From Phycisphaerae bacterium (GTDB taxonomy: Bacteria; Planctomycetota; Phycisphaerae; Phycisphaerales; UBA1924): a DNA stretch of 64,000 nucleotides. The notes under the pieces are model-generated. The model was not told the origin of the DNA. It did not search any database and was given only the letters and a program-made list of their open reading frames with translations. Positions 44,417 through 64,000 of this stretch are shown in pieces. Position 1 is the first letter of the stretch; each line of letters opens with the position of its first letter. The translations under genes were made by a program, and so were the position numbers. The stretch is from positions 62,001-126,000 of the forward strand of contig JAUIHS010000009.1 of assembly GCA_030432255.1 (NCBI GenBank). The letters run 5' to 3'.

Positions 44417-44926
44417 ATGAGCGGTCCCTCCGAATCCGTACTCCATCCGAACCCCGGTGACATATCGATCCGCCTTGCCACGGCTGACGACCAGGGGCCG
44501 ATCAATGGCATCTTCATGGAGGACACGATCACCGAGGGTGTCACGGTGATCGATGCCTCGGGCCTGGTTGATGAGTACTTGGGCAACGAGGACTCGCGGC
44601 TTTGGATCGCGGAGCACACGGAGTCCGGCGAGCCGGTGGGCATCGTCGGCGTCTGGCATGCGGACGACCACATTGCCGAGTTGCGCCGGCTCCGGGTGAT
44701 GACGCGGTATCGAAAGCGGGGCATCGGTCGGCGGCTGGTCGAGACAGCGTTGAGCCATTGCCGGGAGCGCGCCTACCTGAAGATCACGCTGGATACGTAC
44801 GTGAACCGTGCCGCAGCAATTGCGCTCTTCGAGGCATTCGGCTTCGAACTCGCGCGGACGCGTGAGGTGGATGGCAAGAAAGTTCAGGATTTCTACCTGA
44901 ACCTCTATCGCGACGTTGTTGAGTAG
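44417..44926 (+). CDS. GNAT-family N-acetyltransferase
   Basis: 169 residues with the GNAT fold. The acetyl-CoA loop is RVMTRYRKRGIGRRLVE (near 95-111, R-x-x-G-x-G/A type), and VNRAAAIALFEAFGFE near 135 is the typical C-terminal helix and strand. It transfers an acetyl group from acetyl-CoA to an amine, either a small molecule or a protein; the substrate cannot be inferred. The start at 44417 is supported by TATCCT 6 bases upstream; an upstream in-frame ATG at 44363 is disfavoured. Confidence 0.87.
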   Translation: MSGPSESVLHPNPGDISIRLATADDQGPINGIFMEDTITEGVTVIDASGLVDEYLGNEDSRLWIAEHTESGEPVGIVGVWHADDHIAELRRLRVMTRYRKRGIGRRLVETALSHCRERAYLKITLDTYVNRAAAIALFEAFGFELARTREVDGKKVQDFYLNLYRDVVE

Positions 44927-45092: not shown

Positions 45093-45121
45093 TTGCCCGG
45101 AAGTGAAACCAAGGCTATCCT
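45093..45121 (+). promoter_or_regulatory. Sigma-70 type promoter of the candidate small RNA
   Basis: TTGCCC (45093-45098) and TATCCT (45116-45121) with exactly 17 bases between them; each box matches four of six consensus positions. The expected start of transcription is near 45128. Confidence 0.45.
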
Positions 45122-45127
45122 GAGAAT

Positions 45128-45301
45128 TGGAAAAGGGTAACCGTTCCAACTTGAAGTCAGTCACGCCCGGCGATGCTGTTCGTCTGATCTTTGGCGTGTG
45201 ACCCGCAACATGTTTGCGGCGCGTCTTGCTGGCTTCCCCTAACTTTGGCTTCCCTCTTACTCAACGCCCCGGACTTGCAGATCAGCAGGTCTGGGGTTTT
45301 T
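45128..45301 (+). ncRNA. Candidate novel small RNA, about 170 nt
   Basis: The stretch between two convergent genes has a promoter upstream (45093-45121) and an intrinsic terminator at its end. Inside are three possible hairpins: TTGGAA/TTCCAA (45127-45132 with 45144-45149), GTCACGCC/GGCGTGTGAC (45160-45167 with 45193-45202, 2-base bulge) and CCGCAA/TTGCGG (45203-45208 with 45214-45219, 5-base loop). A single-stranded region then carries the same octamer GGCTTCCC twice (45231-45238 and 45247-45254). Repeated C-rich unpaired motifs before a terminator are typical of regulatory RNAs that bind purine-rich ribosome-binding sites. It does not resemble 6S, tmRNA, SRP or RNase P RNA. A 10-codon ORF (45210-45242) is inside but has no Shine-Dalgarno. 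Confidence 0.5.
45267..45301 (+). terminator. Intrinsic terminator, plus strand
   Basis: CCCCGGACTTG (45267-45277) pairs with CAGGTCTGGGG (45286-45296) through 11 pairs including two G-T wobbles; the loop has 8 bases. Five T residues follow directly (45297-45301). The other strand has no T-run, so it serves only plus-strand transcripts. Confidence 0.85.
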
Positions 45302-45336
45302 CCTGCGCGCACTGCCTTTCCGCAGTTCCCCCGGAT

Positions 45337-46557
45337 TCACCCTCTTCTCATGCCGGAACGCCACGCCACCACGCTCAGGAAGATCACCATCACGAACGCG
45401 AGCAGTGTCATCGTGAACCCCCGATGCAGCGCCAGTGATTCGGCGCCCGCCACCGCCGCGAGTCCCACCATCGGACCACCCGCGTAGCCGAGGCCGATCA
45501 GCGCTTCGTGTCGTCCGCCGGCGTCGACCTCCGCTGAACCCACCTCGAGCGCGTAGTAGATGGCGGCCGCGTACACCGCACCGAGTCCCCCACCGAAGAG
45601 CGCGAGCGCGACTGCCAGGCTGAGCGGTGAACCCGCTGCGATGCAACCTGCAAACCCCACGACCATCAGGACGCCGAAGATCACCGGTGCGCTGCGCACG
45701 CCATGCCATCGGTGCGTCCCCTGCATCATCGCGAAGACGACAACCCGACTGATCATCCACGTCGAAGCAAAGATCGTGCGCACGCCTTCCCGGACACCGG
45801 CGGCTTCCACCAGTGAAGGAAGCAAAGGTGTGACGATCGACATCAGCAGGTAACTCATCACGAGCAGGCACCGGCACATGTTCAGAAGACGCCGGAACAA
45901 CTCCAGTTCAGACTCCGAGTGCTCGTGCCCACTGGCACCATGCTCGGACGCATGCGCACCAATGAAGGGAATGAAGAACAGCGTGGCAAGCAGCACACCG
46001 CCGAGCGCCGCCAGGACCGACAACGGATCGTGCGCCAGCAGCGGCTGCATCAGCCAGAAGGAAACCGCGACTGCCGACGCCCACGAGATGTTGAAGACGC
46101 CCGTCGCGCGGCGGAGCGCTGTGCCGCGCCGTCCGCCCGAGACGTAACTCTCCACCAGAGGCCAGAACCACCCACTGAGGATCGAGTTGACAACACAGAA
46201 GATCCAGACCGACGCAGGGTCTCGCCACAGCACCGGCACGAAACACATCGCACCCATGCCCGCGAGCAGCAGCGCCACCGCACCACGATGCGACAGACGT
46301 CCGGCCAGACGCCCGAAGACCCGGCCCGCGGTCAGGGCCGCGGCGACGTACGCGACCCCCACCACCACGGCCAGACCGAGGTTTGCGGCTTCGCCGTACC
46401 CGAACTGCCGCTCGGTGACGAAGTAGATGCCGTTGATCGCGGCCCCGGTAGAAAGGCTCCCGAGCCAGGTGATGGCGCCCACGGCCCAGAGCGGGCTTCC
46501 CCGGTGCGCAGGCGTCTCGTCTCTGCCCCGTTGCTTCACTGTCGATCGGACCGCCAT
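45337..46557 (-). CDS. Major facilitator superfamily transporter
   Basis: 406 residues with about twelve membrane helices and a charged, His-rich central loop near 205-225 (SEHGASGHEHSESE). The family loop motif between helices 2 and 3 is seen as GRVFGRLAGRLSHRG near 80-95. MFS proteins of this size exchange small solutes or export drugs using the proton gradient; the substrate is unknown. I chose the ATG at 46557 (AAAGGGG about 9 bases upstream). Convergent with the small RNA, and divergent from tRNA-Arg. Confidence 0.85.
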   Translation of the reverse strand: MAVRSTVKQRGRDETPAHRGSPLWAVGAITWLGSLSTGAAINGIYFVTERQFGYGEAANLGLAVVVGVAYVAAALTAGRVFGRLAGRLSHRGAVALLLAGMGAMCFVPVLWRDPASVWIFCVVNSILSGWFWPLVESYVSGGRRGTALRRATGVFNISWASAVAVSFWLMQPLLAHDPLSVLAALGGVLLATLFFIPFIGAHASEHGASGHEHSESELELFRRLLNMCRCLLVMSYLLMSIVTPLLPSLVEAAGVREGVRTIFASTWMISRVVVFAMMQGTHRWHGVRSAPVIFGVLMVVGFAGCIAAGSPLSLAVALALFGGGLGAVYAAAIYYALEVGSAEVDAGGRHEALIGLGYAGGPMVGLAAVAGAESLALHRGFTMTLLAFVMVIFLSVVAWRSGMRRG

Positions 46558-63846: not shown

Positions 63847-64000
63847 CCTGATTTATGCTTTTTTCTTGACAACCGGTGCCTTTCTCCACTTTGACGTGCG
63901 CATGAATGGGTGACGTTGTCTCTCTGACAGTGCACAGGGCATCCGTGTTCAGAAAGGACGCCCGAAAAATTCCATCTCGAAAGCTTCCCTCCTACCGATC
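63847..64000. other. Right-hand end, no gene seen
   Basis: A TTGACA-like hexamer (63866-63871) is present, but there is no acceptable -10 at 16-18 bases. A T6 run at 63859-63864 follows the psuG stop without a stem. A purine-rich AGAAAGGA near 63952 has no start codon close by. Confidence 0.5.

Follow-up and report, generated by a model that had tools for sequence, protein, structure and literature searches.

A probable small RNA gene of Phycisphaerales with an invariant 22-nt segment and a candidate RNA partner encoded elsewhere

In the window, i.e., the whole stretch of 64,000 nucleotides that was analysed, an intergenic gap separates a GNAT gene, whose stop is at 44926, from a convergent MFS-like gene, which ends at 45337; Pfam backs both names. 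Within this gap, on the plus strand, we find a −35 element (TTGCCC, 45093–45098, as read from the sequence) and, after a 17-nt spacer, a −10 element (TATCCT, 45116–45121), followed by the predicted 5′ part of a small RNA (45128–45230, its start placed from the −10 element), a first copy of the octamer GGCTTCCC (45231–45238), the 22-mer GGCTTCCCTCTTACTCAACGCC (45247–45268), which is the predicted pairing site for a partner RNA, and an intrinsic terminator (45266–45303) made of a GC-rich stem of 13 pairs (45266–45297) and a T-run. The promoter and the terminator are located where a preliminary description of this DNA had placed them. The gap probably encodes a previously unlisted sRNA gene of Phycisphaerales, whose product would be an RNA of approximately 175 nt (about 45128–45303, plus strand), with transcription starting at a sigma70-type promoter and stopping at an intrinsic terminator, both belonging to the locus itself.

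When 41 genomes were searched at the DNA level, six homologues were retrieved in addition to the window itself, and in each of them the match is confined to the 3′ part; their common core is formed by GGCTTCCCTCTTACTCAACGCC and the terminator hairpin, and the DNA upstream is not alignable. Altogether we identified 20 distinct copies, one per genome (the source genome included), in 20 Phycisphaerales genomes, of which 19 belong to the family of the window (one genus being represented twice) and one to another family of the order. The 22-mer is identical in all 20 and stands directly before the covarying terminator stem. Its exact sequence occurs at 18 loci in 84,980 species genomes, all labelled Phycisphaerales, Phycisphaeraceae, Phycisphaerae or Planctomycetota, and is absent from the viral contigs searched. 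A search of 301 genomes of the order that tolerated three mismatches recovered 17 true copies, every one with no mismatch, and three further sites, each with three mismatches and lacking a terminator (L033, L044 and L045), were attributed to chance. A covariance search in relatives, which the preliminary description had proposed, gave 19 matches of 74–93 bits among the 163 genomes of the family, the next best reaching 34 bits; the matches below 35 bits that were inspected (L065–L075) are mostly ordinary terminators. Some of these ordinary terminators of relatives (L066, L072 and L074) also start with CAACGCCCC and, therefore, the AACGCCCC block does not by itself identify the sRNA. With the same model, no clear copy was found outside the family in a class-wide sample; a match of 32 bits was observed in another family of the class (L106, G576:C187:7526–7573). 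As anticipated, no known RNA family was recognised, since Rfam 15 gave no match either at the gathering threshold or at a relaxed E-value; a weak similarity to NsiR1 (15 bits, against a cut-off of 39) was taken as chance. A stretch of 22 nt frozen over some 19 genera is unusual for an sRNA.

The promoter of the window falls below the 9-of-12 cut-off of a generic scan and its support is comparative. Of the 20 homologues, 19 have a strict TTGNNN-17-TANNNT site 113–150 nt before the 22-mer, against 0.12 expected from dinucleotide shuffles, with no other such site within the 200 nt scanned per homologue; in 17 of these 19 the −35 element begins with TTGC. The terminator stem has a covariation score of 0.279 (0.211 after shuffling, with none of 500 shuffles scoring as high), 98.9% of its cells are paired, and four of its pairs are altered on both sides. 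Terminator-like sites number three, compared with 0.9 in shuffles, by itself a modest excess. Downstream, the neighbour in most homologues is the convergent MFS-like gene and, upstream, the nearest gene on the same strand is GNAT, a DUF1570-like gene or a further gene (a 2′-5′ RNA ligase by inspection). Since the identity of the upstream gene varies, a 3′ UTR of the GNAT gene is unlikely, in agreement with the preliminary description. More generally, the RNA could be a 3′ UTR or a read-through product of whichever gene precedes it, or a cis-antisense RNA to the convergent MFS-like gene, given that it usually lies downstream of a same-strand gene and near the 3′ end of the convergent one; we consider this very improbable, because 19 of the 20 homologues have a promoter for the RNA itself and the upstream gene changes, and because a cis-antisense RNA pairs perfectly by construction and would have no need of an invariant 22-mer. 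A stand-alone, trans-encoded sRNA, as had been suggested, is thus strongly supported by comparative sequence data: the locus has a conserved promoter of its own, the invariant 22-mer and a covarying intrinsic terminator, and its conservation is independent of its neighbours. We give next to no probability to the 22-mer being a short coding sequence (MASLLLNAP...); an ATG precedes it in one relative (L007), but there is no conserved start codon, the third positions are invariant, and loop lengths vary by 1–3 nt, which breaks the frame.

The predicted fold of the window transcript is better than that of shuffled sequences (z −3.7). When the 5′ part was folded for the 20 homologues, strong folding was observed in a sequence unconserved outside close relatives, so that, of the three local hairpins described earlier, the structured character is retained and the sequence is not. 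In two members of one genus (L013 and L049) compensating changes were noticed, by inspection, in two hairpins. The 22-mer is only partly open in the predicted folds of the homologues. As to the octamer GGCTTCCC, both copies reported before are present (45231–45238 and 45247–45254, 16 nt apart), but only the second, within the 22-mer, is conserved; the first is private to the source genome and is paired in the predicted fold. The working part of the sRNA would then be the invariant 22-nt segment preceding the terminator hairpin, and the 5′ part may serve as a structured scaffold of free sequence.

A pattern search for complements of the 22-mer, followed by reading of the matches, led to a candidate partner, an RNA of about 350 nt whose sense strand bears the complement of the 22-mer. 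By covariance models and sequence reading, it was identified in 13 of the 20 genomes that carry the sRNA, including the source genome, and in none of 20 non-carriers; these counts treat genomes as independent, and the carriers may be one clade, in which case co-occurrence could reflect shared descent. In the remaining seven carriers, some of whose genomes are incomplete, the partner was not detected. Its core, GGGGCGUU-hairpin-GUAAGAGG..AAGC, lies in the source genome at G000:C13:115081–115167, outside the window. The best-conserved blocks are a 5′ GCACAGG and the core with its continuation (GGGGCGUU-hairpin-GUAAGAGG-AA(n)GCACCCC), and the hairpin between the two core blocks, variable in sequence and length, is predicted in all 13. 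The RNA starts near the conserved GCACAGG and ends at a strong terminator. The promoter scan was correctly anchored at the GCACAGG start in six genomes, and in these a TTGC-16/17-TANNNT promoter precedes the start by 19–26 nt; for the remaining genomes it took an unrelated GCAC as its anchor and is uninformative. A first model of the partner matched seven genomes in the family of 163, all of them carriers, four of the seven being training sequences. For five of the 13 partners, that of the source genome among them, the score was weak (E 0.02 to 0.25); we retained them after reading the sequences, as they have the same blocks, hairpin, 5′ start and terminator. Four other matches of the partner models (L180, L190, L194 and L195) were judged false. 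There is no Rfam match for the partner, and RNase P, tmRNA and 6S RNA were dropped as identities for this reason; inspection showed no conserved small ORF in it, and so gave no evidence of a type I toxin mRNA. The partner usually follows a same-strand gene coding for a protein of about 270–370 amino acid residues, several of these proteins being lipoprotein-like (L196, 3605–4657, with equivalents in L197–L202 and L205–L207); the four that were tested had no Pfam match. In some genomes a Na/Ca exchanger or a FlgM-like gene is found near the partner RNA.

The 22-mer and the partner are complementary in three antiparallel blocks (AACGCC-GGCGUU, CCUCUUAC-GUAAGAGG and GCUU-AAGC). Predicted duplex energies range from −21.8 to −33.9 kcal/mol in the 13 genomes (mean −29.3), the duplex of the source genome being the weakest (−21.8 kcal/mol), and 400 permuted 22-mers gave a mean of −20.0 kcal/mol (sd 1.2, best −25.4), which places the real duplex at z −7.9. 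In seven of the eight partners obtained first, no more than one of 200 dinucleotide shuffles equalled the duplex. These values have to be read knowing that the partner was first found through complements of the 22-mer and that five of the 13 copies were picked on an 11-nt match; the flanking GGCGUU and AAGC blocks lie outside this 11-nt selection, and the complementarity holds in the eight partners that came from covariance models and not from complementarity. At the level of sequence, complementarity to a trans-encoded RNA is thus conserved in 13 genomes. Part of the partner core pairs internally (GGGGCGUU with AAGCACCCC) and, therefore, the conservation of the core may be due in part to something other than pairing with the sRNA. 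The 22-mer never varies and the partner shows small insertions and changes that preserve G-U pairs (GUAGGAGG in the source genome); as no compensatory change occurs in the 22-mer, the case for pairing rests on conservation and not on covariation. A frozen 22-mer facing a drifting partner suggests that the sRNA has other partners besides this RNA, and the same asymmetry leads us to read the partner as a sponge or a target.

We propose that the sRNA and the partner RNA probably bind each other. The 22-nt segment would pair in trans with the non-coding RNA of about 350 nt, the hairpin of the latter being looped out between the first two paired blocks. Such pairing, which we infer to take place in the cell, might sequester or destabilise one of the two RNAs, the direction and the outcome being likewise our inference, and the partner would most likely act as a sponge or antagonist of the sRNA. 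Overall, we regard a trans-acting, base-pairing sRNA with a separately encoded RNA partner, whether sponge or target, as the likely explanation, at odds of roughly two to one. The absolute conservation of the 22-mer without compensatory change would also be expected of a protein-binding site or of part of a ribonucleoprotein, the complementarity to the partner then being secondary, and such a possibility has been considered for Yfr1 as well (PMC2190773); we hold this to be quite unlikely, since it leaves the three antiparallel complementary blocks of the partner unexplained.

The preliminary description had pointed instead to repeated C-rich motifs that block purine-rich ribosome-binding sites. 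By this account the C-rich segment would act on several mRNAs and the partner would be a sponge or incidental: there are known precedents for an unpaired C-rich segment preceding a terminator, a frozen 22-mer suggests several targets, and a second C-rich RNA, with GACGTGTTTCTTCCCTCC and a C-rich loop, co-occurs with the sRNA. However, the octamer repeat is not conserved, and the search for such targets, carried out on 543 start regions from about 744 kb of the source genome sampled as stretches, showed no excess of complementarity to the unpaired segment: 75 start regions paired at or below −14 kcal/mol, compared with 65 controls inside genes, and shuffled queries averaged 79, in a comparison blurred by gene starts called with a simple rule. 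Hfq was also not found above the cut-off in any of the 20 carrier genomes, control genomes being positive, which speaks against an Hfq-dependent sRNA. We consider ribosome-binding-site blocking rather unlikely as the main function, and a specific RNA partner better supported by the sequence comparisons; it is possible that the sRNA additionally blocks a few mRNAs.

None of the known systems that we compared is a family match. The nearest design is that of the cyanobacterial Yfr1, an sRNA of 54–69 nt with an ultraconserved unpaired 11-nt stretch, ACUCCUCACAC, and two flanking stem-loops, conserved across its lineage for a cause at first unknown (PMC2190773). In both RNAs a GC-rich terminator hairpin comes after an unpaired, C-rich stretch that is ultraconserved, but the sRNA described here is about 175 nt long, has a different 22-nt motif from which ACUCCUCACAC is absent, gives no Rfam match, belongs to Phycisphaerales and has a candidate RNA partner. 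In the actinobacterial 6C/B11 sRNAs, two C-rich hairpin loops act on a G-rich 5′ UTR (PMC10470900); both have unpaired C-rich segments that can base-pair with G-rich targets, whereas here the motif is a single linear segment before the terminator. In the E. coli pairs ChiX/ChiZ and RybB/FtsO the sponges derive from mRNAs (PMC7815308). A regulatory RNA pairing with a titrating RNA is also what we propose, but the partner looks like a separate RNA gene of about 350 nt with its own promoter and terminator, and the predicted pairing spans a looped-out hairpin. In the literature covered, from which most subscription papers are absent, comparable planctomycete RNAs are not described. Catalogued sRNAs are scarce in this part of the tree; for the PVC group as a whole, eight sRNA families were counted in a 2022 review (PMC9029176). 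The second RNA gene, with its matching conserved blocks, makes for a readily testable partner and, if the proposal is correct, a conserved RNA-RNA regulatory pair would exist in a lineage without detectable Hfq.

While the 20 carriers were searched for pairers of the 22-mer, the second C-rich RNA candidate was met on the opposite strand. It consists of a TATNNT-like box, exactly 6 nt, the invariant 18-mer GACGTGTTTCTTCCCTCC and a terminator hairpin of at least 12 pairs, usually with a C-rich loop (CUUCCCC), for a predicted length of about 58 nt, and it shares CUUCCCUC with the sRNA. It was identified in 16 of the 301 genomes of the order, 14 of which carry the sRNA, the other two, from one genus, lacking it; in the source genome it is located at G000:C2:61333 (L113, local position 2334). 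It has no Rfam match, and its computed pairing with the partner RNA is not special. A bolder proposal, which we put forward tentatively and at somewhat less than even chances, is that the two unlinked and unlisted genes are inherited together and that their RNAs make up a dedicated pair, in a planctomycete lineage without detectable Hfq. The 22-nt segment would bind both sides of the partner hairpin, giving a three-way junction; the pair would function as a regulatory switch made of RNA only or as a complex of two RNAs, and the C-rich RNA of about 58 nt would belong to the same network. The sRNA, its partner and the 58-nt RNA would be three new RNA families for curation. In the window, at 63985–63995, we also noticed TTCCCTCCTAC, after which come a strong terminator-like hairpin and T6 (running beyond the window, in L145), possibly a further C-rich RNA with the same motif in the source genome.
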